Positions 5,901-61,000 of a DNA stretch of 64,000 nucleotides are shown here, in pieces. Source of the DNA: Owenia fusiformis. Lineage: Eukaryota; Annelida; Polychaeta; Sabellida; Oweniidae. The notes below the pieces were generated by a model that was given only the letters and a program-made list of their open reading frames with translations, was not told the DNA's origin and did not search any database. Position 1 is the first letter of the stretch; every line of letters begins with the position of its first letter. The stretch lies in assembly GCA_903813345.2 (NCBI GenBank), contig CAIIXF020000004.1, forward strand, positions 18,459,513 through 18,523,512, read 5' to 3'. The position numbers were made by a program, and so were the translations under genes.

Positions 5901-8077
5901 CAGGTCCCCTAAATCCATAAAATTCTAATTTTTGTAACAGTATGCTATGATCGATGGTATCAAATGCTTTTGAAAAATCCAAAAAGAGCCCAATGCTGAA
6001 TTCATTGCTATCAACAGATTTCTTAATTTTTTCAACAAATTGTAGAATTGCCATATTAGTAGATCTTTTTCTCTAAAGCCGTATTGATTTAAGTACAGAA
6101 TTCCAAATCTAACAATAAAATTACTCATCCGTGCATACATAAGTTTCTCTAGGATCTTTGAAAAAACAGGAAGAACTGATATAGGCCGATAATTAGTAAA
6201 TAAATTGAGTTCATCTTTTTTATGAATAGGGGTAACTTTAGCAATTTTTAGTTTATCTGGAAAAACACCCTTTAAGAATGAGTTATTGAATATATGTAAG
6301 AGAGGTTTAAGAAAATTATCGCTGCATTGCTTAATGATATTAGGTTTAAAGTCATCTACTCCAGCAGCCGAATATTTTAGTTGTTTAAATTCCCTGGGTA
6401 GTTCATTTGAGTCAATAGGATTTAAGAATATACTGGTTAACTGTGGGTTGAGATTTGTCATAAATTCTAAGGGTGTTTTATCTGAAGAGGGGATTTTTGA
6501 AGCAAGATTTTGACCAATTTCAGAAAAGAATAAGTTAAAATGATTTGCAATTTCCTGTTCATTTTGTATTTCTTTACCATTGTGCAAAAAAAGAAGTTAC
6601 ATTGCTAGAATTATGTTTTTTCCTTTTAAGTAAGTCATTAATTATTTCCCAATTGTCTTTAATACTCCCGGCAGCTGCTTGAAATTTTTGTCTATAAAAG
6701 TGTTTTTCAGAAGCATTTACAATTTTTCTAAGGATTTTGTCATCTGATTTGTAAGTGGTTTTGTTTGCATAAGATGGATTTCTTAAGTATCTTTTATAAA
6801 GTTTAGATTTTGTTTTAACAGATTTGATGATTCCTAAAGTTATCCAAGGTTTTGATACATCATTGAAAATTTTTATTTTCTTAGTTAAAAAAGGAAAGCA
6901 CTTTTCATATAAAGAACGGATGGTTGTGTCAAAAATATTGTAAGATTCATTAGGATCATTAATGGAGATTACATTATTCCAATCTGTGTTACTTAACATT
7001 GATTTAAATAAATTGATGCACTCCTTTTTGACTTTTCTGTATTTAATTAAGACTTTTTTAGCTTTTGGAAGTATTCCTTCATTGGTAGCATAGATGGGAA
7101 AATGATCTGATATATCGTAGATTAAAACACCACATAAATTAACTCTATTATCATTTGTAAATATGTTATCAATCAATGTTGCTGATGTTGAAGTTACACG
7201 TGTCGGTCTATAAATAAGTGGAGAGTGATTGTATGATTTCATAATTTCATAAAAGTTTTCTGTTTGAGCATGTTGTTCAATTTTAAAAAGGTCAATATTA
7301 AAATCACCCATGATATAAGAAATTTTCTTTTCTTTTGAAATAGTAGCCATATATATATCCAAATCTTCATTGAACTCTTCAATATTAACATTAGGAGGTT
7401 TATAAATAGCTGTAATTAAAATATTGCATGTATTTTCCATTATTAATTCCAAAGTGACAACATCACAACTATCATTATTAAAATTAAGATCATTTCTCTC
7501 AATAACAGTAAGGGATTTATGAACATAAAGACAAACACCTCCACCTTTGCTAGTCCTTGATTTAAAAAATCCATTGTATGTCAAATAATTCTGAAATCTA
7601 TGCTCGTCCTCATTAAAGAGCCATGTTTCTGATAATGCTATAACAGATACCTTTTTATCAAGAGATGCAATCAGGTTATCCAACTTCCACTGATTCTTTG
7701 ATAGACTTCTTATATTAGAATGGATAAGTGATATCTCAGTGGAATTATTTGAATTTAAAATATTATTTAATTTATTCAGTGATTTGTAGTTACATCTCTT
7801 AATAGAGGCATCTGTTGCGGAATCAAATTCAGGTGTATCTTCTTCTATTAAATCAATATCCATCGGATTAAAAATCTTATTTTCAAAATTGGGTAAAGCA
7901 TCTCCAAATGGTAGAAGTTCAAATAATTCATCACTATCAGATACTGTAAAAAAGGGAAAAAGAGACCAAGGCATGGACACCAAGTTGCTTGTTCTATCCA
8001 GTGTCAAATATATAAGTTATATTGATGCACCTTCCCCCAAAAGGTTTAAAATTCTTCCCAAACATTGGAAAGAATGA

Positions 8078-14671: not shown

Positions 14672-15280
14672 CTTAACTCAAATTACACGACTATTTTACA
14701 TAATCATACCTGTATTTTTCAGTCTGAAACACCTTCTTCGGCGAACATGAACATATTCTATCATAAAATCGTAAAACGATCCACTCACTTAAATTTCGAA
14801 ATTTAAATTATTTTTTTAAGCAACTTCCGGTGAGCGAACTATGTAATCAAACTCCAACTAACAATAAATATACCGATACACGAACGCGTGGGAAGGTGTT
14901 TCAGTTTAAAAAATACTTATATCCAATCAATTTGAAACCATGTTTTCACCAGAGGTAACTACCCAAAGTAAATTTTTACTCGAAAAGTATCAAATTAATC
15001 AATGGTGTACGCAGTCACCAATTAAAAAAAAAAAAATTATGAACATTGACTTCCAATGTATTTTTTTTTTCCTTTCAGAAAAGCTGACACGTTTTAAGAT
15101 ATAATGAACACTTTAGGTCACAATAAGTTATCTTTTCTATTCAACCATTGCTACAATAAATAATCTCTTAATCATAGTGCAGATGGCAAAGGGGGAGAAG
15201 GGAGATGGTAAAAGGAGGAAAACTTGTGAGATAAATGCCCTTAAATATCAAAAATCAAAAACAACAAAGCCACCATAACA

Positions 15281-18200
15281 ATGATGGCTAAGAATTGCAA
15301 CCAAGACGGGCATAATAGTAGCTCTGAATCATCAATCTCATCAACTCTATCAGCAGAAGAACAATTTCGAAACTCGACTCATTTCAGCATTATTCACATG
15401 AATGCTCAAAGTTTAAGGAACAAAATGGACCAACTGAAAATAGAATCAAAAAACAGTGACATAGTGTGTCTCTCAGAGACGTGGTTAGACGATAATGTAC
15501 CTAACAGCAACATTACCCTGGGAGGCTACCATCTACCAGTAAGATTAGACAGACTAGAAAGAAGGGGAGGAGGTGTTGCTATTTTCGTAAAACAAAATTA
15601 TATTTTCAAAAATGTAAGTAACTTGGTACCAAATGGACTAGAAGCATTATGCATCGAAGTCCTTATAGAAACGAAAAAAGTTCTCATAACTACAGTGTAC
15701 AGAGCTCCAAACAGCCCAGCAAACACATGGACTCTCATAGACAACTTACTTGAAAATATCAAAGAATATGCCAATGGTAAGAAATATGTCTATATGGTAG
15801 GCAATCTAAATTGTGACATGCTTAATGAGACGAACAACAAACTTGATGATCTGTTTCAAGAATACAATCTACATCAAATGATAGAAGAACCTACTCACAT
15901 AACAGATACAGCCGCAACCTTAATTGATATCTTGGCAACAACATCTCCAGGAACGATCATACGCACAGATGTACTAACACCATCAATGAGCAAGCACAGC
16001 CCCATATACACAGAAATTAACATTAAAAAACAGTCTGGTAAAGACTATAAGCGAACAATAAGAAACTATAAACTTGTAGACTGGAAAGCGATGAACGAAG
16101 ACATACAGAGTAGGAACTGGAATCAAATACTAAATATACATGATAACAACAATGACACTGACGTAAATGAAATTGTAAAGAATTGGTATAAAGAATTTAA
16201 AGGCATAATAAACAAGTTTATCCCAGAAAAGACAATAACTATAAGGCAAAATGATCTGCCATGGATCACAACAAAAATAAAACGTTTCATTAGAAGGCGG
16301 AACAGAGCTTACAAGATGGCAAAAACACTAGGAACAGACACGCTATGGGAAAAATACAAAAAGCTGAGAAATGAAACAATAACCGAACTCAGAAATGCCA
16401 AAGAAGAATACGAACTAAGACTCTCACAGAAATTGGTCAATGGAAAAACTGGAACAAAGACCTTGTGGACTGTGGTCAAACAGTTCTACAACGATTTCAG
16501 GGCATCAGATAACAATGAAACACCCTTTCTTGTCAATGGTCATTCAATATCAAACAACAAAGAAAAGGCTGAATTATTGAATAATCATTTTTTAGCCCAA
16601 AGCAGACTGGAAACTAATCAAGATCCACCAATTCTCCAAGCATCAACTGACAAAAGTATAGAAACGGTAAGATTGTCAAATCAGACAGTCGAAGACATAC
16701 TTATAAATCTGAATCCAGGAAAGTCACTAGGGCCTGACAATATAAGTCCACGTGTTCTAAAAATGACTGCAAAATCAATAGCCCCGATACTGGCACAAAT
16801 ATTCAATGCATCATTAAAACAGAATGTCTTCCCAGACATTTGGAAAGAAGCGAATGTAACACCAATATTCAAAAAAGACAGAAGAGAAATAGCAACAAAT
16901 TACAGACCAATATCTCTACTGAACTGTGTAGCGAAAGTATTCGAAAGAGCAATGTATACTCATGTACATAACTACCTACACAAATGGAAATTGCTGTCAA
17001 AATTCCAATCTGCTTATTCCCCAGGAAACTCCACAACAACGCAACTACTAGAGATGTACAACTACATCATGGAGACAATGGAGAATAATGAAAACACAAG
17101 AGCCGTCTTTTGTGACATGTCAAAAGCTTTTGACCGAGTATGGCATAAAGGCCTAGTTAACAAGTTAGAACGGAAGGGAATCAAAGGAAACTTACTAAAA
17201 TGGTTCAAAAGTTACCTATCCAACAGAAAACAAAGGGTAATTCTCAATGGCGAAACATCCAGCTGGGGGTATATCTCTGCAGGCGTTCCACAGGGCTCCA
17301 TCCTAGGACCACTGTTATTTTTGGTGTACATAGATGATATCTTGGAAAACCTAACTGATAAATGCACTGGAAGGATATATGCAGACGATACTACATTTCT
17401 TGCAAGTGGAAAAGAAAATGACAACATAATTGAAACTCTCAACGAACAACTACGATCAACAAACGAGTGGGCCAATATATGGCAACTAACCTTCAACCCA
17501 GAAAAAACAGAAACAATGTTATTCACGAGAAAACACCAAAATAATGGACAATTTCAACTCACTTTCAATGGAAAAGTTATCAAAGAAGTGACTAACCATA
17601 AACATCTAGGCCTGACATTAGACAACAATGGAACATGGGGATCACACATAAGGAACATAACAAATAGAGCTGCCAAGATGATAGATGTCATGCGAGGACT
17701 TAAATATAAACTTGACCGAAAAACATTGGAAATTATGTATAAAGCATTTATTAGGCCTATAATTGAATATGCCTCCCCAGTTTGGGACAACTGTCATAAC
17801 TATGAAAAAGACCAACTAGAAGAACTACAACTAAAAGCTGCAAGAATCTGTACAGGGGCAAAAAGAGGAACAAGCCACGAGTTGATATACAAAGAAACAG
17901 GTTGGGCAAAACTTCAAGAGCGTCGAACAACACAAAAACTACTAATAATGCACAAACTCATAAACAAAAAAATAACAGACTCGTTGAGCAATGTGATTGA
18001 ATCAACCAAGAGAAGGTCTGACCATGATCTCCGACGAGCTAACAACCTATTAATGCCTGTATGCAGAACTGAAGCGTACAGAAAATCATTTCTACCAGCC
18101 ACAATAAAAGTGTGGAATGACGTTGATGCATCAATAAAAAACACAAAAGCTGAGGAGCACTTCAAAAAATTGATAACAAACAAGAAGAAGGTACCAAATT

Positions 18201-18514
18201 ACTATTACTATGGGAAAAGAGACACTCAAATAATACACACACAGATAAGACTTAGATGCAGCGACTTAAACCAAGATCTACATCTCAACCATGTAAAGGA
18301 CAGCCCCAAATGTGAATGCGGAAACCCAATAGAAAGTGCCGAACACTATTTCAAAGAATGTACTTTATACCAAAGTCACAAAACAATTCTACCTAGGACA
18401 ACATTGACAGAACTTATCCATGGAAATGCAAGGAAAACAGATGAAGAAAACAAAGCCACATTCACTGCTGTTCACAATTACATAAGAGTTACAAAAAGAT
18501 TCTCTAACAAGTAG
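15281..18514 (+). CDS. LINE ORF2: endonuclease-like domain + reverse transcriptase
   Basis: 1077 residues, uninterrupted; ATG ATG at 15281. The N-terminal EEP-like domain (~35-245) has HMNAQSL (N41), LSETWL (E66) and YRAPNS. However, the usual GDxN reads GNLN (N175 in place of Asp) and the usual SDH reads SKH (K238 in place of Asp). The RT (~470-760) has NYRPISLLN, FCDMSKAFDRVWHK, GVPQGSILGPLLF and YADD (Y700-D703, coding at 17378-17389), and is complete. The C-terminal region has a CECG-x(5)-EHYF-x2-C cluster near 1010-1030, like the zinc-finger-like tail of many such LINEs; no RNase H domain is obvious. RT looks functional, while endonuclease function is doubtful. Confidence 0.9.
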   Translation: MMAKNCNQDGHNSSSESSISSTLSAEEQFRNSTHFSIIHMNAQSLRNKMDQLKIESKNSDIVCLSETWLDDNVPNSNITLGGYHLPVRLDRLERRGGGVAIFVKQNYIFKNVSNLVPNGLEALCIEVLIETKKVLITTVYRAPNSPANTWTLIDNLLENIKEYANGKKYVYMVGNLNCDMLNETNNKLDDLFQEYNLHQMIEEPTHITDTAATLIDILATTSPGTIIRTDVLTPSMSKHSPIYTEINIKKQSGKDYKRTIRNYKLVDWKAMNEDIQSRNWNQILNIHDNNNDTDVNEIVKNWYKEFKGIINKFIPEKTITIRQNDLPWITTKIKRFIRRRNRAYKMAKTLGTDTLWEKYKKLRNETITELRNAKEEYELRLSQKLVNGKTGTKTLWTVVKQFYNDFRASDNNETPFLVNGHSISNNKEKAELLNNHFLAQSRLETNQDPPILQASTDKSIETVRLSNQTVEDILINLNPGKSLGPDNISPRVLKMTAKSIAPILAQIFNASLKQNVFPDIWKEANVTPIFKKDRREIATNYRPISLLNCVAKVFERAMYTHVHNYLHKWKLLSKFQSAYSPGNSTTTQLLEMYNYIMETMENNENTRAVFCDMSKAFDRVWHKGLVNKLERKGIKGNLLKWFKSYLSNRKQRVILNGETSSWGYISAGVPQGSILGPLLFLVYIDDILENLTDKCTGRIYADDTTFLASGKENDNIIETLNEQLRSTNEWANIWQLTFNPEKTETMLFTRKHQNNGQFQLTFNGKVIKEVTNHKHLGLTLDNNGTWGSHIRNITNRAAKMIDVMRGLKYKLDRKTLEIMYKAFIRPIIEYASPVWDNCHNYEKDQLEELQLKAARICTGAKRGTSHELIYKETGWAKLQERRTTQKLLIMHKLINKKITDSLSNVIESTKRRSDHDLRRANNLLMPVCRTEAYRKSFLPATIKVWNDVDASIKNTKAEEHFKKLITNKKKVPNYYYYGKRDTQIIHTQIRLRCSDLNQDLHLNHVKDSPKCECGNPIESAEHYFKECTLYQSHKTILPRTTLTELIHGNARKTDEENKATFTAVHNYIRVTKRFSNK

Positions 18515-32304: not shown

Positions 32305-33453
32305 TCATTTTAAAACCACTTTATTATTGAAAGATTGTAACCGTGAATTCTGATTTGGTCTTAAAATGTACTTAATGTACAGGGGTGAAGGTAGTAACAT
32401 ACGGTGACACAAATAATCGTCGGAATCAGAGTCCTCTTTTATGACAGAGTTAACGAACTCATCTGAAAGACCTAAGCTTTCTGATGTGTACTTGCATCTC
32501 TTATGAAAACTATCAAGCAATGCATCAAATTTTCCCAATCTTTCTTCAAATCTCCTTCCCATTGCTTTAATTTTCCTCCAAAGGGTTTTGTTAAAGAATT
32601 CAAACATTGCATAATCGACTTTACTATAGATTCTATAGTTTCTTTCTGCAAGCGCTCTGTTTGTAGTGTGATCGAAACTAGTTGTTGAAAGTGATCCCAG
32701 TTTACCATCAGCCGCTACTTTCTGGGATACATATAACATATCGTCCAATGTCCAACAGAGGAGCTCGCCTAGCAGTACTATCGATTCCTTCATATGGTCA
32801 GTTATCAGAATCAAATTAAACATAGAATCGACATGTAAAATAAATTCTTCTATTTCTTGAGATGTTGAAATTTTATTCAAATGTCCATAATATGAACTTT
32901 GCTGGTTTTTAGGTATTCTGACATATTGATATTTCCAGGGATTTTCTTCAAAATCAGCCAAAGAAACGATTGTCCCATTTTTCATGATGCCCTTTTTCGC
33001 AAAATTGTAAAGTGACTTGAGCTGTTCAAGTGGGTTGCGTAGAACTCCGATATATACAGTGCCTCTCGGCATTAATTTCCTCATGTCATTTTCAATAAAT
33101 TGCACATGATTTACAATCAAGTTGACATCATCACCAATGTGATCCCTAATATCTCTAGGTTTAATGAGAACATCCCCAAATTTTGGAAATAGGAATCTTA
33201 GACTATGTTTTTCACCATATCGCTGAAATACATTTGTTATTGTCGAGCCACCGCATTTTGGAACTTTGATAAAGACAATATTTCTAGCTGGTGTACACGT
33301 TCCTCTTATTGATGTTGATCCAAAATAATCATTTTCATAATGCTTAGACCTACCTTCACTGGGAACTTTATCAAAGTAGGATCCAAAAAGATATACGAAA
33401 AGACATGTTGCACTCAGAAGTAGAATGCTACAAATGGAAGTCCATTTAGCCAT
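32305..33453 (-). CDS. Galactose-3-O-sulfotransferase family protein (Gal3ST-like)
   Basis: 382 residues in a single exon. The ATG at 33453 is chosen because it has a good context (aaaATGG) and is followed at once by a type II signal anchor (~6-27, ICSILLLSATCLFVYLF). The frame extends 23 codons upstream only to a TTG. The lumenal part has the 5'-phosphosulfate loop IKVPKCGGSTITNV (K63-T71) with the family's following RYGEKH. It also has the 3'-phosphate motif GVLRNPLEQLKSLY (R139, S147) and the VNHVQF element between them. Length fits vertebrate GAL3ST proteins (~400). Family members transfer sulfate from PAPS to the 3-OH of galactose on glycolipids or glycans in the Golgi; the acceptor here cannot be told. 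It stands alone, with a poly(A) signal 60 bp downstream. Confidence 0.9.
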   Translation of the reverse strand: MAKWTSICSILLLSATCLFVYLFGSYFDKVPSEGRSKHYENDYFGSTSIRGTCTPARNIVFIKVPKCGGSTITNVFQRYGEKHSLRFLFPKFGDVLIKPRDIRDHIGDDVNLIVNHVQFIENDMRKLMPRGTVYIGVLRNPLEQLKSLYNFAKKGIMKNGTIVSLADFEENPWKYQYVRIPKNQQSSYYGHLNKISTSQEIEEFILHVDSMFNLILITDHMKESIVLLGELLCWTLDDMLYVSQKVAADGKLGSLSTTSFDHTTNRALAERNYRIYSKVDYAMFEFFNKTLWRKIKAMGRRFEERLGKFDALLDSFHKRCKYTSESLGLSDEFVNSVIKEDSDSDDYLCHRMLLPSPLYIKYILRPNQNSRLQSFNNKVVLK

Positions 33454-34145
33454 TTTTATTTCACGATATATCCTTCTGTTATTAATAAATATACATATCC
33501 TTAAGATGATAAATAAATCCAAACGTTTTGCATTCAGATGTCTCTAAATACGTTGTTGCTATCTTGTTACACTGTACTGTTCGTAAGATTATGAGCCTGG
33601 ATATTTCTTATTGAGCTGAAGGGCTGGCCCGGTTGAAGAAATCCATCTTATCAATATTACATGTTTTACAGTATTTTGCGATATTCGTTAGGCTTAATGA
33701 ACGTCAGCTGGACTGGCAATTCCCTTCTTTTGTTGTCCTTAATTGTATCCTCAAATCACAGATTTTTTAAATGTGGCTATTGATTTTTAATTTAATTAAG
33801 CGTCATTTTTAAATGGTGTAAATAATTCCTTTGTTATCGGTGATAAAAAAGTATTGTAGATTTGTGTATGAAGGTAAAATTTCTAGCAAACTTATTCCAG
33901 GGTGGAGAATCAAGTCGAAGACACGGCCGCGGACTGCGACTCCGTAACTTTTCACCGCAGCATAGCGCCAAATTAAAGTGGAGGAATATTCGGTGATCCC
34001 TTACATGTCGATGGACAAATCTGTGAAATCAAGACACTTCAAATGCTATAGTTTTGGTGTCTGTTTAGTTACGAAGAGATTACTCTGTATCCATTGTTCA
34101 TACATGTATCTTGGAAAGAAATAAACAGTTGTCGAGATTAAGTTG
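33454..34145. other. Upstream region of sulfotransferase gene
   Basis: Presumed 5'UTR and promoter side of the minus-strand gene. No TATA box or upstream exon could be assigned. No other gene is visible. Confidence 0.35.
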
Positions 34146-46687: not shown

Positions 46688-49600
46688 ATGTTGGGACTCC
46701 TCGCGCTATGTGTTGGCATAGTGGCAGCCCAGGAAAGGCTAGGTAAGATGAAGTATTTACAGCAAACTGTAATCAATGATATTGCTAGTTGCCCTGATTA
46801 TTTAATTTATTATGAATTATAATTTCGGAACTAGTCCCACAAAATTAAAACAATTCAAACTTCATATGAGAGGATATAGTAATCTGCTTTAAAAGAATTT
46901 CAGCCGTGCCATTGTCATACTCGTATAATCAAATTGTTAAACATACTTCCTATTATTTCCAATTTCGTGGTCTCCACTCTGACCATCCTCTTAGCAGCAC
47001 GTATTATTGGGTAGATTTGGATATTAGGCCAAATTCCTGCTGTATATAATTCTTACCTCTTTCCTTCTAACTTGGCTCCACCATCACGCTTCCTTCCTTT
47101 CTCGATGAGTTGTGTACATCATTTTTTCCTGGATGCACTCCTTTCCTATTGTAGAGGCCACTATTCTGCACTTTATATTGCTGGCACTTGATGTTCTCTG
47201 TTGGAACTGATGTGCCCGCAAGCTTGTCCACAACCTCATTATGATGCAATGGTGGCCTTGGATGTATACTAATGTGACGCTTGCTTTCTGTCCAACCTGA
47301 TATTGTGCCACGTGTCTGTTACAGTACCTGTCTCCACCTTTGATACTATGCATAATGAGTCGGTCAAGATGATAACTTTCTCATTCTCTTTCACATTGTT
47401 GGTTGTCCATTGCCCCTGTTTCTGCGCAAAATTAAGTTTCTCCCCATTTTTTCTAATTTTCTTCTGTTGTTTTTCCAAGTTCCACCACCCTATGCGCTGA
47501 TGTTGTCCCTTATGGAGCCATCTGTTAATTATACTATTAGGTTCCTCTGCCTCTATGTATTCTTGTCCTGCAATATTGTTTTCTGCTGTTCTTTTTCGCT
47601 CCATGAAAAGGCTTTTCCAAGCAAATAGCTTTGAAATCTCGTTAAAGTCTCGTTTTTAATGAGATTTTAACCAATAAATATGCCATCCTTTTTGATGGCA
47701 TATTTTTATTCATGATTCTGTGTGTAATTTTTCATCAGAACAACTTTGATTTGCACTGTTATTTACCTTTATTCAAATTCTAGAGATTTTCAAGTTTTCT
47801 GAAAATGGCCGGGCTAAATTCCCATTGACACAATGTTGAAAAACCTTTAAACGTTCATTAAAGCGGCTCTAAGGTCTGTGGAGAGAAAAATGGAGAAATT
47901 CTACCTTTTCTGAGCTATCGGGGTGAAGTTTGGTCCAACATCTTCTTCCTTATTCCTATTTTATAAAAATGTATGCATAATATGGCAATATTCATCAACC
48001 AGTTGAACTGGCAAATCGTTTAGAATCTACAATTCCATACAAGGAGTCCCACTCATAGATTTTTCAAATTCTTTCCAAGTCGACGTCGAAACACCTAGCG
48101 GGTGAAATTGAAACTAATCTTTCTGGCTGCTCGAATCGATAAATCTCTGATAGTGTGAGTCTTTTTATGAAATCTTTCTGATAGAAAACACTTAATTAAT
48201 ATTAGAAAGCATTAAATGTTGAATCCGAAGCGTAATCTGAAATAAAAGTGAAAAAACATTGCGCGGACGTCAGAGAAAAACTTCCGGTTTAATAAAAAAT
48301 GGCGGACGTCGAAGGAGAAATTATGACGAAGAATTAGAGGATTTTCCTTTGCCATTATCGATCGTTATAAGGTATGTGCACAAATTCTAGTAGCATACAT
48401 GGAAAATAGATACATTTTTAAAGGCAACAACATATTCAAAGCTTTCATTTTACGATAGGCCCAGGATCATTGGATACGACTCGGCAATCGATACTCCCAC
48501 TTTAACTCTTACAAGGATCACAATTTCAATGTGAAATCACAATCCACGTGTCAATAATATCATTTAGTTACATTCCGATGGTGTTTTAAGTTGATCCAAA
48601 TGTAATTACTTGTTAAAGAACTTAAGTGACTCTTGCTATTAAGTTGAAAATGTTATTTAGCCCTACCATTACCCATGATGCCATCTATTTTTCCATTTAT
48701 ATGGAAAAGGGTCAGAAACGTAATGATCAAATGTTTCTATTTCCACATATATACATTTTCTGTCACCCCCTTTTTTATTTAGATAATCAATCAACTTATA
48801 CGATCTCAACAAATCCAAATTCAATATGCCAAAAAATAAATGGATGATTAACGTGTTGAAGCGATCAACGTGTGCAATATCAGATAAGACGCAATGTACT
48901 GAATATAATTATATAAGAAATAGTTAATTCCAGGCCAATATAACGTCGACAAGAGCCAGATCTCTGTCTCTGGTTTGTCCAGCGGAGGTGGCTTTACAAC
49001 ACAGTTCCATGTGGTACATTCAGCGTCTATCATGGGCGCTGCCCCATTCTCGGGAGGTAAGTCATTTTGAATACGGTTCTACATGTCAAATATATCTTTT
49101 ATACTTTACATTCCTGAATAGGTGATAATAAAAACTGATGAAAAAAGTAAAATTTGCATATTCTATTCTGGAGCGGAGCTCCCTTTCGGCACTTGAATTT
49201 GACAGTTTTTCATATATTTATGTAATAATTTATATATGACGATACGTCAGCGTAACAAGATGGAAGAACTTCCGGGCTTCGTTTTCGGTAAGATGGTTTT
49301 ATTTCCCGATTCTTCACCACTTATAAGTCAAGTTGTGGACATTAATTTGGCTCAAAGTTAAGGGAGATTATAGTCTTGTTTGAGAATATGCAGGCGGTTC
49401 TATGTTTGGTATATTAACGAAGACGCAATTCACATATTTAGTCCCTCGCTTTTATTACGTTGACGACAATATTCATGAAGATCGTCAGCCATAAACATTC
49501 TCAAACTAGACTATCTTCCTTAACTTTGAGCCAAATTATTGTCCACAACTTGACTTATAAGTGGTGAAGAATCGAGAAATAAAAATATCTTACCGAAAAC

Positions 49601-52600
49601 GAAGCCCGGAAGTTCTTCCATCTTGTTACGCTGACGTATCGTCAGCGTAACTAGGTGAGTACCAGTGATAATGGAGTTTGGCAAGTTGTTCCAGAGCAAC
49701 TTGCAACCCAGAACCATAGATTAAAGAGCCGTATTCAATTTTAGAGAGGATAAAAGAAGTATACATTGTTTCAAGATGTTTTGAATTAACTCTCATTTTC
49801 AATGCTGACAGGGGATTTAGTAGTTTGTCAATTTTTGCTCGGACTTCGTTTATATGAGTTTTAAAGTTCAAGTTTTTATCGAGAGTTACGCCTAAATGTT
49901 TATGTGAATCGACTCGGTCTATTGAATTGTTTTTTGTTTTCAAAAGTGGATATGGCTTTCCATAGACGTTTTCTTTACAAAAGATTATTTCTTTTGATTT
50001 CGAAGGCTTGGAATTCATTTTCCAAGTTTGGGACCATTTAAAAATATTGTCGAGATCGTTTTGGAGGATTTCGTGAAATCTTGTTTGTCCCTTGGTATGC
50101 ATATTTGTGAGGATTCCTAAAATGACGATTTATTACGATTTCCATGGTAACAATAATGGATACATGAATATTCTTTGCAAAAACATTTCTATTAATGACC
50201 CCTAGATCATCAATTAAATCCGGTTGTGTTTCCTTAGTGCCTTATAACTGCATGACGCATCATGGAGGCGATTGTTCCCAAGACCCGGATGTGATAAACA
50301 TCGACACCTTGGTGACAGACACGAACAACTTTGCTGCTAATGGAGATATTGACCCCGTGTCAAATCTAGCACAATCCAAGGTGTTTGTCTTCCATGGCCC
50401 ACATGACTTCTTTGTAGAGGCCGGTAAGTTACCCCTTGTAACATATAAACAACAAGAAATAACCCAAATATACAATCGCGTAAAATAATGTTAAACTAAA
50501 AGGCTGAATATTTCATTGCCGTACGGATGGACAGCATCGAACTTCTACTACATTCAGCATCAATATTTCATATTACTAAATAACCATCCATTTTACTCGA
50601 AATCAAGGATTGTCAATTTTTCAGTTGAGAAATTCAATCGCAATTTTTCTTCCTTTATCTGTTCCGTGATCAATTCTACAACAATTCCTAATCCAACTGT
50701 TTATTAAGACTCAAAGAATATGACATGTTCAAATATTAATATACCCGATGACCTATTCTGCGAAAAGTGATCGTTTGATTGTGATTTATACAATATGAAT
50801 GTTTCAAAACAAACACAAATATGGTATTCGTGTACTACAGGTGCCGGCAGGAAGATCGTAGAATACTACCAACGATTTAATGCTGATGTCATCGGTGAAT
50901 TTGACATTCAGGCGGGTCATGGCTTCGTGAGTAACATACACAATTATAAGGGTTGGATTGAAGGCAGAAGCAGAGCTGTGGCTTAGCTATATTAATATAA
51001 AACAAAGGAGCAGGTAGGTTATCGCAAACAATTCCAGACGATTCTAACTTGAATTATGAATATTTCCTGATCATGAAGTATATTTAAAACCCATTCATAT
51101 CTCAAAGAAAAGTATATAATTTAATCAGACTAGGTGATTTTACGCGGCAATCGACCAATCAACTTTTTCAATGTTGACCCAATTTTCACAAAAATGCAAC
51201 CTTTTAATACAATATTGAATACATCATTAAAACTTGCTTTAAGACATGTTTATTTTATTTCCTAAAAAGAAAATTGGATTCCTCCAGGAACTTTAAATAT
51301 ACTGAATTTGGATGATAAAAATGAGCTGGAACCACTGAGTTTTCTCAATGGGGAACACTAATCTTAGAGGAATTCCGTTTTCATGAACTAGTTGATACCT
51401 CAAATCAAAGAATAGCAGCGCATTAAATATTCTAAAAATGATTGCAGTTTGGTGAAGATGACGTCAACATCTTTGAAAAAGTATGTTGATGGTTGATTGT
51501 TAGCTAAATATCTCAAAGACCGATTTACTTTATTATCATTGTATATACTTTTCTTTGAATCAAATGGATGGATCTAAAAAATATATTTCTCTTCATGGTC
51601 AGAAAATAGTTTTTATCCAAGATATAGCCGTGTGAAATGGTTTGCGATAACCTACCTGAACCTTTGAGTTAGAATACATGAATGTTAGTTATCTGTCATT
51701 TCATGAAAATGCACTGGCCTGGCCGAGGACGAAGAATATGTTTTACTTTTGACAGAAGAAATTGTTTTTATTTCTTACTTAAAACCGAACATTTATGATG
51801 TTCATATAGGTCCATGGACTTGTGGAATTTCTCAAATTCGAATTGGCCCAATCGATTTTGTTAAATTGGTGTATATACCTGTACATATAACCTGCCAAAT
51901 GTTTGTGTTATATTTTGTGTATGCAACCTGCCTAAAGGTTGTGTTATATATGTGTCATGTCTGTGTTGGTATTACTCAGAGTTTGTGTTATATTTGTGAA
52001 TATATTGCCTTATAGGGTGAGTTATATCTGTGTATGTATTGCTCAACATGGTATGTTATATTGGTGTATGTATTGCTCAACATAGTGTGTTATATTTGTG
52101 TATATATTGCCATAGGTTGTGTTGTATTTGTGTAGGTATTGCCTTATAGGGTGAGTTATATTTGTGTATGTATTGCTCAACAATGTGTCATGTGTGTGTT
52201 GGTATTACTCACAGGTTGTGTTATATTTGTGAATATATTGCCTTATAGGGTGAGTTATATTTGTGTATGTATTGCTCAACATGGTATGCTATATTGGTGT
52301 ATGTATTGCTCCACATGGTATGTTATATTTGTGTATATATTGCCTTATAGGTTGTGTTATATTTGTGTATATATTGCCTTATAGGTTGTGTTGTATTTGT
52401 GTAGGTATTGCCTTATAGGGTGAGTTATGTTTGAGTATGTATTGCTCATCATGGTGTGTAATCTGGGTGTGCTGTATTGGTGTATATATTGCCTTATAGG
52501 TTGAGTTATATTTGTGTATGTATTGCTCAACATGGTATGTAATATTGGTGTATGTATTGCTCAACATAGTGTGTTATATTTGTGTATATATTGCCTTATA

Positions 52601-55600
52601 GGTTGCGTTATATTTGTGTATATATTGCTTTATAGGTTGTGTTGTATTTGTGTAGGTATTGCCTTATAGGGTGAGTTATATTTGAGTACGCATTGCTCAT
52701 CATGGTGTGTTATCCGAGTGTGTTATATTGGTGTATATATTGCCTTATAGGGTGAGTTATATTTGTGTATGTATTGCTCAACATGGTGTGTTATACCTGC
52801 GTATGTATATATGTTTTGCTTTTAGCCAACTTGGGACTACGGAACTGACTGTGACGCTACGTTTATTCCAGGTAATTATACAAAAAGAAAAACTTTTTGC
52901 ATCCAAAATGATGAACTTGTAATTGTAATATAAACACAACATGATATAAACTATGATATAAAATGAATATTTCTGTGGTTATGTATGAAGGTATCAACAG
53001 ATGTCAGTATTGGGGCGCTTACAATGCATTGAACCACATTTATGGCGGGAACCTTCAAGCACCTGACCCGAACACACCGACGCCCGGTCAAGTAATCATT
53101 TAATCTATATCTTAATTATTTCGTAATTGACCTTCAGCTGGAGACTAGTATTAGGTAGTAAGCATTATGTATTTTTGAATTAGCTAGCATTCGCTAGTAT
53201 CAACTGCAGGCTGACGGTAACATAATCATTGGTAATATGCATAAATTAAGGTGAAGCTGGAAAATAACGTTTTGCTAAAAAATTGCTATACCTGCACATG
53301 GTATTTTCTGGTACAAAATAAAGTATGAAGGCATATGTCAATTTCCTTGCTTTTTTCAGGAAAGTATAACATTGTCTTCATTTAGAATATCTGGTAGGAG
53401 TTCAATGGGAACTCCAGGAAATTCTGATATTTCACACTTTTCATTTCATTTCACAATTTTCTTTCAAAGTTTCCAGACAACACAGGAGCTACTAAAAGTA
53501 GACAGTGTAATCTGTAATGATACGTTCCTGAAAAAAGCAAGGAAATACACTCATGCCTTCATACTTAATTTTGTACCAAAAATATGTGCAGGTATAGCAA
53601 TGTTTTACCAAAATGTTACTTTCCAGCTGAGCCTTAAACACGTCATTGGAAGTTCAAATAGCGATCAAATCGCTAGTTAGCTAACAGTTCATAGTGTAAG
53701 AAATAAATAATGGATATAAAAAAACATTTAACTAACAGTGATTACGTGACTTTTTATACAGTAATATGATTGATGATAATAAATAATACTTTTGAAATCA
53801 TCACCAGTCAGTCGATAGTTAAATTCGTGATGTATTCGTCAACATGTACACCAGTGGCATAACTCGAACCCAAAATAATGTTTTTCATTTTGTAGTTTAT
53901 TTCCTTCGACCAACATGAGTTCAGAAACGCTGTTAGTAACACTGCTGCGTTTGACCCCATCGGGTACATCTATGTCCCAATTGGCTGCCAGAACAGTGCC
54001 ACCCGTAAATATATAGTATTCCTTATTTATTCAGTTATATATTACATTGACAAACCCTATGAATCATGATCTTACCAACATTCTCCTTGATATGCTTGAA
54101 ATCAGGAATCAAGATAGTTTTGACTCAGACCCGTAAACAGAGGGTTAACAAAGTTCAGACGACGCCCATGCCCGTCAATTGAAAGTCATTGAAGCAAAAT
54201 TGAACTAAGATACATATATATTATATATACATTTCAATTTAGTTCCTTTCTTTAATTTTCACATATGCTTCAAGGTTTAACACAAGTTCTGAAACTAATA
54301 TCAAGTGGTTTGAAATATCGATCAGTCCCTTTGGTATAAATAAATCAATTATATGAATCAAAATATTAGTACAAAACACAATCGTATCCGAACACGACCA
54401 TGCAATCAAGTCATGCGTGTTGTGCATCTTTTTCATTGCAGCATGCAGACTACACGTTAACTTCCACGGCTGTTTCCAAGGAAGGTGAGTCGTTAATTAC
54501 GAAATGGATCTTGACTTTATTATTCCACAATGTGCCTGGCTGGAGAAGAAAAATGTTTTTTCATTGCATGAGAGTCGAGACAAACCAAGTCTTCCCTCCC
54601 CTTTTCCTCAAAACTTTTTCAATTCTCAATAATTTTTCACAATTCACAAATCTTCCATTGCTGCATGTCTCATACTGAACACATCTGCATTCTGCATTAC
54701 ATATCGAATGTAAACATGATATTTGTCTTGTAGACTATTGCTGGTTTTGACCCTTGCAGCATTGGGAGCCCAAATGGCTTCAGATGTCATTCTTGTAGAT
54801 CTGCTTAACTCTAAAATGCATTGTAAACCTGGATGCAGTGACAACAATTGAACCTGATTTTGGATTTCAGACAAGGGTGGATCATAGATGACGATGAGTA
54901 TGCTAGAAACACTGGCTATAATGAGGTTGGAGAATTGAACAATATCATTATACTCCACCCCCAGATTGAACCAACAGACGATAACCCTGGAGGCTGTTGG
55001 GATTGGAATGGACTGGACAGTGCCGATTACCGTAAGTTTTAAAAAATTCAAGGACTGCCATCATTAAACTCAAAAGAACGTTTGCAAATTGGAGCCTATC
55101 ATACAGTATATTCTTTAAGTGGCCATTTTAAAATATAATAGGGAACCTTCGTTTCCACATTAGAGCTTCATTAGATCAAAATAATCATTAACCTCATATC
55201 TTGCCACCCTATTATTTTCCCAGTATAACAATGTCATCTCCAATTTGGGATATACCAACCTGCTTTTTTATTTAAGTTACATATACAGGGTGGGCCAAAA
55301 AAACGCCACTTTTTTCAAAATGCTATAACTTTTTTAATTTTTGATACAAAATCATAATTCACATACCAAATGAAACTTGAGGTTGTTATCTAGCCATTGA
55401 TCATGAATTATACACTTTTACTTGAATAAAATATGTCACCAGCGTCTCACTTAAACATGTGGTGTGCCATGAGAAATAAGCATAATTTGCATAATGTTCC
55501 TAAACTGATACGCCCTGATGACCGCAAGCTAATAGCCCTAATTCAAGCCCAAGTGAGTATAGGGCATGGGGAGGTCTCCAGGAGATGGTATGAAGGCACC

Positions 55601-56008
55601 CGATCTAAAAAATTGCTCAACTAAAGCTGGCAATTAAGACACATTGAAAAAAATATAGCTAACATTTCATTGATACTGCTATATCAGCAAGGCGACTAAA
55701 ACTAAAATCTATCATCAAATGGGGTGGCGGACCAATTGAACTCCTCTTTTTAGATCAAATATAATCCCAGTTGAAGAACTTCTTAAATTATATTATGACT
55801 AAGAACCCTTGGCACTATATAACTGCAAAATTTGGGGTATGTAGGTTGGAAAATAAAAAAGTTATAGTGTCTTGAAAAAAGTGGCGTTTTTTGGCCCACC
55901 CTGTATATACATTATATTATTATGTGTATCGCCATTTATATTGCAGAGACAAAACGAGGACACCACGTACAAATCGTCAAGGCAATGATAGACAGAGTGA
56001 CTGGTTAG
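46688..56008 (+). CDS. Secreted PHB-depolymerase-like alpha/beta hydrolase, 10 exons
   Basis: Exons 46688-46742, 48934-49056, 50238-50423, 50841-50926, 52826-52871, 52991-53091, 53896-54004, 54442-54484, 54871-55031, 55947-56008: 972 nt, 323 residues plus TAG. All introns are GT-AG and phases close exactly. Residues 1-15 are a signal peptide (MLGLLALCVGIVAA). Motifs: SVSGLSSGGG with lipase box G32-L-S34-S-G36 (nucleophile Ser34), FHGPHD (Asp116), AGHGFPTWDYG (His148) and CRLHVNFHGC (oxyanion His244). The order Ser-Asp-His-oxyanion is that of 'type 2', circularly permuted extracellular PHB depolymerases. No substrate-binding domain follows. Likely role is extracellular or digestive cleavage of polyhydroxyalkanoate or a similar ester; substrate is inferred, not shown. 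Introns are full of repeats. Confidence 0.88.
47067..47604 (-). pseudogene. Decayed retrotransposon RNase H fragment in intron 1
   Basis: Minus-strand frames give VIILTDSLCIVSKVE (the TDS motif of RNase H). After a frame change come TLVYIQGHH and then HHNEVVDKLAGTS, which together match the GH-x-G-x2-N-E-x2-D-x-LA end of a retroelement RNase H. The pieces lie in the right order but different frames, so the copy is dead. The rest of the element is not visible. Confidence 0.6.
49238..49643. mobile_element. Palindromic MITE in intron 2
   Basis: Arms of about 155 bases: 'gacgatacgtcagcgtaac…' at 49238 and its complement ending 'gttacgctgacgtatcgtc' at 49643, continuing inward through 'gaacttccgggcttcgtttt' and 'acttataagtcaagttgtgg'. 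It sits directly against the 3' side of the RT fragment next to it. Confidence 0.85.
49660..50102 (-). pseudogene. LINE reverse-transcriptase thumb fragment in intron 2
   Basis: About 145 codons: WSQTWKMNSKPSKSKEIIF, HKHLGVTLDKNLNFKTHI and SILSK-like 'ILSKIEYGSLIYGSG' are the region just after the YADD box of CR1/Jockey-type RTs. It lacks both ends and differs from the two larger LINEs in the window, so a third family is represented. The 'YADD' that appears at the far end of this frame comes from the neighbouring MITE end and is not the catalytic box. Confidence 0.75.
51011..51658. mobile_element. Non-autonomous element in intron 4, TIR 'caggtaggttatcgcaaac'
   Basis: 'caggtaggttatcgcaaac' at 51011 and its complement 'gtttgcgataacctacctg' ending at 51658. 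The interior of ~600 bp has no gene and no other symmetry that I can follow. No clear target duplication was seen. Confidence 0.65.
51890..52800. repeat. ~34-bp minisatellite in intron 4
   Basis: More than twenty copies of 'gttatatttgtgtatgtattgc' + 'tcaacatggt' or 'cttataggttgt', about 34 bp each. Two variant types alternate irregularly. It ends about 25 bp before exon 5. Open frames in it are repeat translations. Confidence 0.9.
55286..55903. mobile_element. Mariner-type element remnant in intron 9
   Basis: Ends CAGGGTGGGCCAAAAAAACGCC … GGCG(T)nGGCCCACCCTG, flanked by TA (55284-55285 and 55904-55905). It is 618 bp. A 62-codon plus-strand frame (55436-55624; HLNMWCAMRNKHNLHN, IALIQAQVSIGHGEVSRRWY) may be a remnant of a transposase N-terminus with a helix-turn-helix-like stretch, but this is unproven. 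Confidence 0.8.
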
Positions 56009-56086: not shown

Positions 56087-56092
56087 AATAAA
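56087..56092 (+). terminator. Poly(A) signal AATAAA of PHB-depolymerase-like gene
   Basis: AATAAA 79 bases after the stop codon at 56008, plausible for a short 3'UTR. The next start-like exon (56115) lies only 23 bases further. Confidence 0.55.
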
Positions 56093-56114: not shown

Positions 56115-56184
56115 ATGCAAAAACTCGCATGTTTAATTTGTCTTATTATGGCATCTCTTAATATCGTTGGAGGCCTCGTGGAAA
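56115..56184 (+). CDS. Candidate signal-peptide first exon of another gene
   Basis: ATG at 56115 (gaaaATG) opens 23 codons reading MQKLACLICLIMASLNIVGG…, a typical signal peptide. A consensus donor (gaaa|gtaagc) follows in phase 1, the same phase as the first intron of the PHB-depolymerase-like gene. No continuing exon could be found on the plus strand before the minus-strand chitin-binding gene begins. It could be an orphan first exon of a damaged duplicate, or of a gene whose other exons lie further on. Confidence 0.35.
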
Positions 56185-57204: not shown

Positions 57205-58010
57205 TTATCCCTTTGCAATTAGAAATGCCTCCTCTGAGGCATCTGCCCCTGAATCAATCGTACAATTGTACTTTCCTTTTGGAACGCACTTTTTCTTTCC
57301 TGGATTGAAGACGAGCTTATGCGATGGGCAGAACATGATTCCTGTGTTGCCAGCAGCACATCGTATGATTCTGTGACAACTCTCTGGGTGAACATAAAGA
57401 CCATTCGGTTTATCCTCGCAGAATTTCTTTACTGGACTCTCTTCAACTTCAGTATCTTCGAGATTACACTCAAACTCCTCTGTTATAATGCAACGTCCTA
57501 AATCTGCGTCGAAATGGTACTCACCATTTGGACAAAACAAGGCCCGGTTCGTTGAGCCCTTATGGCATCTTACGAATTTATTACAATCCAGCGGATGTTT
57601 GTACAAGCCATCCGGAAGACCAGCGCAGTACTCGTCCGCATGGAAGGCGTTCGGGTCGTGAGGACAGTCGTACTCTGAGGCTGGGCCACACCGCGCCCTG
57701 CCTGGTAAGAATATCATTGGAAAAACACAGGTTAGGGTGGAAGCGATACCAGCGCGACATCTTATGAATTTTTTACAACTTCCAGGTTTTGGTAGGAATT
57801 TCTTTTCAATCCCCGTGCATGGGTTGATGTGCTTGCCAGGTTGATCACCGATACACTCATAGTTTTTCAAACTATCGCATTTGCGTATGAGTGGGTTGTA
57901 TACCATGTCTTCTGGACACTCCACGTCAAAGCGTTCATTCTTATAACATCTGATCATTGAATCACATCGCCTGTGTTCATAAAATCCGTTTGGTTTGTCA
58001 TCACAAAATG
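57205..58010 (-). other. Last exon with four CBM14 domains
   Basis: 806 nt terminal exon holding domains 4-7: FCDDKPNGFYEHRRC…, PCTGIEKKFLPKPGSC…, YCAGLPDGLYKHPLDC… and FCEDKPNGLYVHPESC…, each with six cysteines. It begins after a strong acceptor (tttgtttctttgtaaatgcag). The open frame continuing to 58107 is intron, since its hydrophobic-looking start uses no linked exon. Domains 1 and 2 are each on a single exon and domain 3 on two; four domains fused in one exon suggests intron loss or retro-duplication of modules here. Confidence 0.8.
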
Positions 58011-61000
58011 CTGCATTTACAAAGAAACAAAAAACAGAATAAAAACATAGAATTGAACTGACCGAAAAGCATAATAAAGCCATACAATATTTGGAAGACG
58101 ATTTCAATAAAATAAAAAGTATTCAGTTTTCTGGTTCGGCCTTTTCGAATCATGTAAATGTGTGACGGTTTAATTGTACATAGTTCTGCTACTTGTCAGT
58201 GTTTTTATGTCACAACCAAAAGTGTGACATATTGGTGTAGTCTCCAACCTTTTTGAGGACGGTGTTCGGCGTTCGAAGGTTGGTGTTCGGCGGTCGATGT
58301 CTGTAACAAATGACAGGCGGTGACAAATTTTGCAGGTTCATTCCTTGTTTTCTGTTTGTTACTCACATGCTCTGTCTTTCTCCTCAAAGCAAGCAGGGAC
58401 TTCTCTTCGTAATCTACAACCTTTGGCGACAGGGTCGAATACCTAAAAACAATAGCACTCAAAGATATTATTGATCCTACCCCGCTGAACCCCATTGAAC
58501 TATTATGGAATAACTAAAACAAAAGCCCTTTAGTTGGTCATCTTTCGATGAATGCGGGCTATTCTCTATGAATATGAAATAACGTATCATTAATCATTAC
58601 CATGTCACCGCCATCCTCAGCATCATCGCAGGTGAAGTTGTACCTGTTCCCCAGTGAGCACTGGAAGTATTGGTTGCAGTCGCTCTCGTGTGGGTAGAAG
58701 CCGTCATCCACACCTTTGCACAACCCGCTCTCTAAATAGTGCAGCATTGACATTCAATAATTATTGTAAATTTACACCCTTCCTAAATGTGTAAATTGTA
58801 TTGAACAATTAAACGAACATCTTTTTTGATTTCCTGCAAAACTAATTTGGGCTTTCTTTAAGCGCAATGTTAATGTTAAGGGAGTGATGTTTACATGTAG
58901 TTAGGTTTTCTTGAACTAATTTGGGTCTTCCCTATGCACAGTGATTAGGGAATATAATGTTTTGAGTATTCTCCTAGAACTACATAAATGCGTTACCTTT
59001 TTTCTTTTCCCCTGCTTTTCCGCAGAACGCATATTCTGCCCATTTACATTTTGAATCAGTTCTGTCGTACCTTTGTCCATCCGGGCATTTCAATAGGATT
59101 GCCCTCCTATTGTAGCATTGTACGTAAAGTTCACACATTTCCTTGAAAGGATAGATTCTCTCCAAAGTCTTCAAACAGTCGTAGTATACTACAACGGAAT
59201 CATGATAAGAACCTTGAATTAAGATGTCTTTACACTTCCCGTACAAGTTTGGAAATCAAATAATTCATCATCTGAGCACACAACTGAATCAACACAACCT
59301 GAGATTAACATTATGTTAGTCTCAGACACAACTCACTTTTTCTATAAGCCTTTCTGCTTGGTATGCACTCTTCTTTATCACATTCGCCAGTGAGTGGATT
59401 GAAGTTCTTGGCATCATCAGGACATGATAGGATAGTCCCATTTCCACCTCTACATACCACAAACTTACTGCAGTTGCTCGGATTCGTATACAAGCCATCC
59501 ATAAGATCTTCACAAAAACTTGAATCTGGAAAATGATTTATAAAATTATCTTGATTATTCACTGGCTGTATTACAATACTTAATAGTAATCAGCAAGTGC
59601 TACAGTTTGGGGGATTTGTTTTCCATAGTTCAAATAACTTATTTAGGGTGGACATGAGTTTTGATGAAATGTGTGTGTTTCCTTCTTTAGCATTGTATTC
59701 CTGAATTACCAGTGTCCGGAATAGGACTTAGAGGTGCCCCAGAGCGACTGAGATTCTTCTGAGCAGTGAGTCGAAGCCCCTGGCCCAATAGAGGGAGTGG
59801 TGGATCAGGTGGTCTGGTTGTTGTTGTAGTTGGCTCAGGTGTTGTAGTGGGAGGAATTGTTGTTGTATTGGGGACCGTTGTCATCTCCGTTGTGCTCTCC
59901 GTCGGCATCTCTGAGGAACAATCGAGAGGTTAAGAACGAACATTATGACCCTCTTTCTATTATTTTTATTTAATGACTCTACTATTTAAAAATAGCGCAA
60001 ACCTCATGGATCCAAAATGATACTTATGTCAAATCATTATTATATGTCAGTTTTATAAATGGACATGGACTTTTCCTATTGCAATCTCAAGAGACGCTGT
60101 ACCTGTTGTAGTAGTAGTTGGTTGTGTAGCGATGGTGGGTGGTGCTATATCAGGGTCGTCATACAGACTCAGTATTATGATTTCATTGGGGAAAACCTTC
60201 AGCTTGTTTAGTACTCCACCTACAATTTGTGCCATTACACTTTTAACAACTTTAGATACTGGCTCGTGTATATTATTTTGAAATCATGTCCCAGGTTAAG
60301 AATGCAGGTTCACTTTGATCATAAAAATCCACGTAACCATTAGTATACATTACTTCATTTGATTATGAAAGTTTGCAATAGCGTCTCATCACGTTCATTT
60401 TTTAAAAACTGTTTTAAGACAAGATGTATTCTAGCCCGTATTCTACCTTACTCTAGCTAAATAGTTATATGCTCTCATACTAAACACCTGTATTGCACCT
60501 GGAATAAACCCCAATATTCCACGTCTAAGATGGTTATAACACGTACAGAAGTTGGAGCAACTGAAACCTTGAGAATCAAGATGATAAACTCTGTTTTCGA
60601 AAGCCGATTTGATCTAAAGAGCCCACCTTTACGTGCTGCTGCCTGTTTCAGTGGAACCATCAGCTGTTTGAAGTGGATCTGACGATTGAATTCAAGACCA
60701 AATGTAACAATAACACTCCCCTCTCTGGAATGTAACATATATTCGGAATACATACAACGATTGATGAATTACTACAGTGCGTCCCATAAATACGCAACAA
60801 ACAAAGACATTGTAAAATCACAACACCAGTGACGATTATATCAATTTGATTTAGTTTACCAGGAAGCCAAATGTCTCCTCTTTCCAATGGTATGTCAATT
60901 ATTCATATAAGACAACAGACCACTGATCATTCCTTTTGCACAACGGGCCAAAATCTGCTCTGGACCAAGTTTTAGACATTGCAACAATTAACAAGGAGTC

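Follow-up and report, generated by a model that had tools for sequence, protein, structure and literature searches.

A family of putative secreted type 2 PHA depolymerases in the genome of the annelid Owenia fusiformis

Analysis of the window, by which we mean the whole stretch of 64,000 nucleotides of Owenia fusiformis DNA presented here, led to a gene of 10 exons on the plus strand at 46688-56008 (Table 1). The exons join in frame to a 323 aa protein with no stop or frame break, and all nine introns are GT..AG (phases 1, 1, 1, 0, 1, 0, 1, 2, 1). The GC content is 0.49 in the coding sequence, compared with 0.336 in the introns. A spliced aligner returned an identical 10-exon model, although this is a consistency check only, as the aligner was queried with the protein of that very model. 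The N-terminus of the protein, MLGLLALCVGIVAAQ, is hydrophobic, ends in VAA/Q and, read by eye, resembles a signal peptide. The conserved motifs start at residues 32 (GLSSG, with S34), 113 (GPHD, with D116), 146 (AGHG, with H148) and 239 (LHVNFHGC, with H244). Both the exon structure and the positions of these four residues had been put forward in an earlier note drawn from the DNA letters, and all were reproduced in the spliced translation. That note had also taken the gene for an animal one, in agreement with a Wnt search that gave 42 matches in the same genome and none in 14 control genomes.

Table 1. Coordinates of the depolymerase-like gene and of adjoining features in the window.
Feature	Position	Strand	Remarks
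Exon 1	46688..46742	+	Start codon; signal-peptide-like N-terminus, aa 1-18, read by eye
Exon 2	48934..49056	+	Lipase box GLSSG, nucleophile S34; S35 (oxyanion amide by 2D80 alignment)
Exon 3	50238..50423	+	GPHD, catalytic D116
Exon 4	50841..50926	+	AGHGF, catalytic H148
Exon 5	52826..52871	+	
Intron between exons 5 and 6	52872..52990	+	119 bases; window copy only
Exon 6	52991..53091	+	
Exon 7	53896..54004	+	
Exon 8	54442..54484	+	CRLHVNFHGC; H244 and C246, oxyanion-hole region
Exon 9	54871..55031	+	NPGGCWDW; W295
Exon 10	55947..56008	+	Stop codon TAG at 56006-56008
AATAAA polyadenylation-signal-like hexamer	56087..56092	+	79 bases past the stop

Several other features were observed in and around the gene. 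Intron 4 holds a long degenerate AT-rich repeat array (approximately 51880-52810, by eye), and a segment of intron 9 (55285-55904) has near-perfect inverted ends (ACAGGGTGGGCCAAAA..., by eye), perhaps marking a mobile element with terminal inverted repeats. Downstream, an ATG opens a signal-peptide-like frame ahead of a GTAAG donor (56115-56184, by eye), perhaps exon 1 of another secreted-protein gene. The depolymerase gene is adjoined by minus-strand frames at 57205-58122, 58980-59255 and 59311-59589, which encode four, one and one chitin-binding Peritrophin-A (CBM_14) domains. Elsewhere in the window we annotated a long Galactose-3-O-sulfotransferase-like open frame at 32305-33543 on the minus strand (PF06990, E-value = 2.3e-42) and two retrotransposon-like frames, one with an endonuclease and a reverse transcriptase (15245-18514, plus strand) and one with an endonuclease (6574-8016, minus strand).

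The window protein matches NF050059 (NCBIfam e_dPHAscl_type2) over residues 19-321, on profile positions 2-305 of 305, with 274.9 bits against a curated cut-off of 280 (E-value = 8.6e-82), so that the homology is not a chance one. According to the excerpts of PMC2666664, the type 2 catalytic domain is defined by a lipase box, Asp and His with the oxyanion region after the triad, and the order found here is the same: S34, D116 and H148, then H244/C246 C-terminal to the triad. The circularly permuted motif order noted earlier is thus present, but it is normal for the known type 2 family and is no peculiarity of this gene. The assignment to a type 2 PHB-depolymerase catalytic domain with an intact triad was borne out by the full-length NF050059 match and by alignment with the fungal structure 2D80. 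The first variable position of the lipase box (Gx1Sx2G) is the hydrophobic Leu33; a hydrophobic residue at x1 has been suggested as a mark of PHA depolymerases and occurs in all type 2 members of the database described in the excerpts of PMC2666664. A Pfam search of the window protein gave no family over its cut-off, only three sub-threshold hydrolase families, and PF10503 (Esterase_PHB) had no match in the window protein or in the animal genome. We take PF10503 to model the other domain order, judging by the type 1 Pfam-like matches. Homology gives good support for the fold and the mechanism, and the gene encodes a known kind of enzyme found in an animal, not a categorically new one. Its interest lies in the family of about seven members, its separateness from the fungal enzyme and a paralogue without the serine.

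Conservation of the catalytic positions was followed through an alignment with 76 bacterial rows. D116, H148, C246 and W295 agree in all 76, S34 in 75 (the remaining row has a gap) and H244 in 70. Among the seven animal rows, D116 and H244 are kept in 7/7, S34 and W295 in 6/7 and H148 in all six in which it was read; the partly read copy on contig C11 has Thr at the W295 position. Eight cysteines (64, 72, 159, 170, 230, 237, 246 and 292) are invariant in 6/6 aligned animal proteins and 76/76 bacterial rows, as suits a secreted protein. H244 had been named earlier as the oxyanion residue. Its position is correct, but in the fungal enzyme, according to the excerpts of PMC5445757, the main-chain amides that form the oxyanion hole belong to Ser40 and Cys250. 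The counterparts of these two residues in the window protein are S35 and C246, and H244 is a conserved but non-catalytic His adjacent to the hole.

When the animal genome was searched with protein and profile queries, related exons were detected on contigs C3, C4, C9 and C11, with 37 matches up to an E-value of 1 and 26 at 0.001 or better. One match on C6 (E-value = 0.36) was weak and was taken for chance. Homology splicing yielded five further near-complete genes: one on C9, two on C3 at about 12.93-12.97 Mb and two on C3 at about 32.78 Mb. A seventh copy was partly read on C11. By these matches, the genome has about seven members of the family, the window gene included. The five near-complete paralogues are 56, 46, 46, 41 and 39% identical to the window protein, and all five score above the 280 bits of NF050059 (293-351), leaving the window copy the lowest of the six. 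The window protein served as the guide for every paralogue model. The N-termini of these models are unreliable, as are exons of only 1 to 17 bases in those of C3a, C3c1 and C3c2; the P_C3b model ends 15 query residues before the C-terminus. The C11 copy could be joined across its long introns only via implausible short exons and was therefore placed in the tree only as conserved exon pieces, with exon 4 unread. A second copy of its exon 2 is present: identical translations of exon 2 and a short preceding piece lie near 27524359 and 27565293 of C11, about 41 kb apart, and represent a local duplication or an assembly duplicate.

Six introns are common to all six spliced copies, on three contigs, at an identical alignment column and in the same phase, and at least six of the nine introns are consequently older than the duplications. 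The 119-base intron between exons 5 and 6 occurs in none of the five other spliced copies and has AG/GT at both junctions; it is likely a later gain and a candidate for a recent one. One of the paralogues, P_C3c2 (C3 near 32783964-32784117, locus L011, minus strand), carries GMAAG where the others have GxSxG, an Ala codon (GCC) replacing that of the serine. No stop interrupts its spliced model, and its dN/dS against the neighbouring P_C3c1 is 0.23 by a rough count. By its sequence it may be a pseudoenzyme beside an intact copy.

A scan of bacterial genomes with the single window protein gave seven pattern stretches and no relatives. When the bacterial and archaeal genomes were scanned with an alignment of the six proteins, 71 loci were found, all bacterial by their titles. 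At an E-value of 1e-10 or better, relatives occur in 23/398 genomes of the Pseudomonadota (the phylum of G001) and in 2/282 of the Myxococcota (the phylum of G002), each count including the centre genome; of the two Myxococcota matches, the second is only partial, covering residues 20-141 (E-value = 6.5e-11). The nearest of the 76 bacterial rows, from Pseudoduganella aquatica, is 40% identical to the window protein. The tree had 84 rows (seven animal, one fungal and 76 bacterial), the bacterial ones comprising 70 of the 71 loci of the six-protein scan and six of the 12 Pseudomonadota and Myxococcota loci. Those left out were L086 (partial), L095, L096 and L099 (no suitable frame found), L092 and L094 (in the genomes of L032 and L021) and L093 (weak and partial).

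In this phylogeny of bacterial, fungal and animal homologues, of the kind proposed in the earlier note, all seven animal rows cluster in a single clade (100/100) whose stem has a length of 0.57, apart from the fungus. The fungal row F_2d80 groups with four Burkholderiales-kind rows (L060, L079, L089 and L091; 100/99). Constraining the animal rows and the fungal row to a single clade was rejected (p = 1.0e-7), and constraining the animal rows to group with one Vulcanimicrobiota and 17 Actinomycetota rows was not (p = 0.373); the tree was already known when these two groups were tested. Fine placement is weakened by flags from the tree program, which listed P_C11 and P_C9 among the long end branches and marked W_C4 and P_C11 for an odd letter make-up. 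F_2d80 and L079, from a Burkholderiales bacterium, are 56% identical, and the grouping suggests a bacterial origin for the Penicillium funiculosum gene. On the evidence of the alignments, the annelid genes are an old resident animal family and not contamination, as the six shared introns and the fully supported animal clade indicate. The earlier argument that nine introns rule out recent contamination gains from six of them being shared across six copies on three contigs. An ancient transfer from microbes, also raised there, fits an animal clade on a long stem among bacteria, but with one fungus as the sole other eukaryote in the tree, neither its time nor its direction is given.

The product is probably a secreted serine esterase whose substrates are PHB or oligomers of 3-hydroxybutyrate, with a probable role in digestion. 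We infer secretion from the N-terminus as read by eye and the substrate from the family, and likewise infer activity and site of expression. Within the type 2 short-chain-length PHA depolymerase family, the protein would be an alpha/beta-hydrolase with a single domain, secreted and working through a classical serine-esterase cycle as the fungal enzyme does. H148 and D116 would activate S34 for attack on the ester bond, the oxyanion would be stabilised by the main-chain amides of S35 and C246, and the acyl-enzyme would then be released by water. Given the family, the substrate is most likely poly(3-hydroxybutyrate), or oligomers of it, derived from bacteria that are eaten or live in the animal. 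Cleavage would take place outside the cell, probably in the gut, and would yield 3-hydroxybutyrate that the animal could oxidise.

The same fold and triad might instead serve an animal clade that has shifted to another ester (e.g., dietary esters or lipids), with PHB hydrolysis lost or incidental. Such a shift would agree with the long animal stem (0.57), with an identity of at most about 40% between the window protein and any of the 76 bacterial rows, with the absence of a substrate-binding domain and with a score just below the NF050059 type 2 cut-off; the family has moreover diverged, P_C3c2 being without its nucleophile and C11 having Thr at W295. We nevertheless think it rather unlikely, as the window protein retains its triad and oxyanion Cys, together with the CWDW motif and the hydrophobic residue in the lipase box, and the five other spliced copies pass a profile named for PHA depolymerases.

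The remaining explanations concern the gene itself rather than its substrate. Ten exons without a stop or frame break, splice sites that are all GT-AG, catalytic residues that are all retained and a pN well below pS against the C9 copy (0.30 and 0.81, the latter saturated) make it very improbable that the window copy is decaying or unexpressed, with the active members elsewhere in the genome, even though it has the lowest NF050059 score of the six and an extra intron. Bacterial contamination or a recent transfer could draw on the patchy bacterial spread reported above for Pseudomonadota and Myxococcota, but is scarcely credible for a gene with nine introns, six of them at a common position and phase in six copies on three contigs, and with no bacterial row above about 40% identity. 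Returning to the depolymerase reading, we tentatively extend it to the whole family, with less assurance than for the single gene: an old, expanded set of about seven secreted type 2 PHA depolymerases, acquired separately from the fungal enzyme, could digest bacterial polyester, and its serine-less member may bind the polymer or regulate.

PHB is a widespread bacterial carbon store, and if animals digest it with their own enzymes, bacterial stores would be linked directly to animals as food. This, if true, would bear on the use of PHB as aquaculture feed and on what becomes of PHA plastics that animals ingest. With about seven genes in one genome, and intact and serine-less copies adjacent to each other, the question is testable.

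Among solved structures, the best matches to the window protein are those of the Penicillium funiculosum PHB depolymerase (2D80, E-value = 1.5e-30; 2D81, E-value = 3.8e-30), colinear over residues 18-302. The two proteins share the type 2 order, and S34, S35, D116, H148 and C246 correspond to Ser39, Ser40, Asp121, His155 and Cys250, with 2D80 residue numbers computed from a chain offset of 20. On the same numbering, the residue opposite W295 is Trp307, which we take to be a substrate contact. The 2D80 chain has 318 residues, 24 of them after the match, and thus little beyond the catalytic domain. The window protein ends 2 residues past its NF050059 match, the linker and substrate-binding domain being absent. 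In the excerpts of PMC2666664, a linker and a substrate-binding domain after the catalytic domain are the common architecture, and one other enzyme is named as the sole validated extracellular SCL depolymerase without a substrate-binding domain as of 2009. Set beside that statement, the missing polymer-binding domain counts against full polymer activity, yet the chain of 2D80 is similarly short there, as are many bacterial relatives: beyond the catalytic domain, 39 of 71 have fewer than 60 residues and 32 have at least 60. The bacterial relatives match over the full catalytic domain and have all catalytic positions in common with the window protein, at an identity of at most about 40%.

The type 1 PHB depolymerases (NF050058, TIGR01840 and probably 8DAJ) have the same pieces in another order and match more weakly. 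Profile positions 88-196 of TIGR01840 match residues 17-132 of the window protein, and positions 14-87 match residues 237-318 of the C9 copy, which shows the permutation relative to type 1. The same swap of pieces was found with 8DAJ, whose second piece is weak (i-Evalue = 6.7).

Gutless marine worms are among the animals whose PHA depolymerases have been worked on. Among the matches listed from the open-licence PMC literature, preprints excluded, no paper was devoted to animal PHB depolymerases. The Dictyostelium PHAZ gene (PF10503) is described in the excerpts of PMC4339202 as present in two copies per choanoflagellate genome, with matches in non-eumetazoan animal lineages. From gut tissue of an animal, a PHB depolymerase gene was reported among intestinal ESTs of the sea cucumber Apostichopus japonicus (GenBank JK730361.1), in the excerpts of PMC4764845. 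This likeness, compared by description only, favours a digestive role, if the gene is the host's own.
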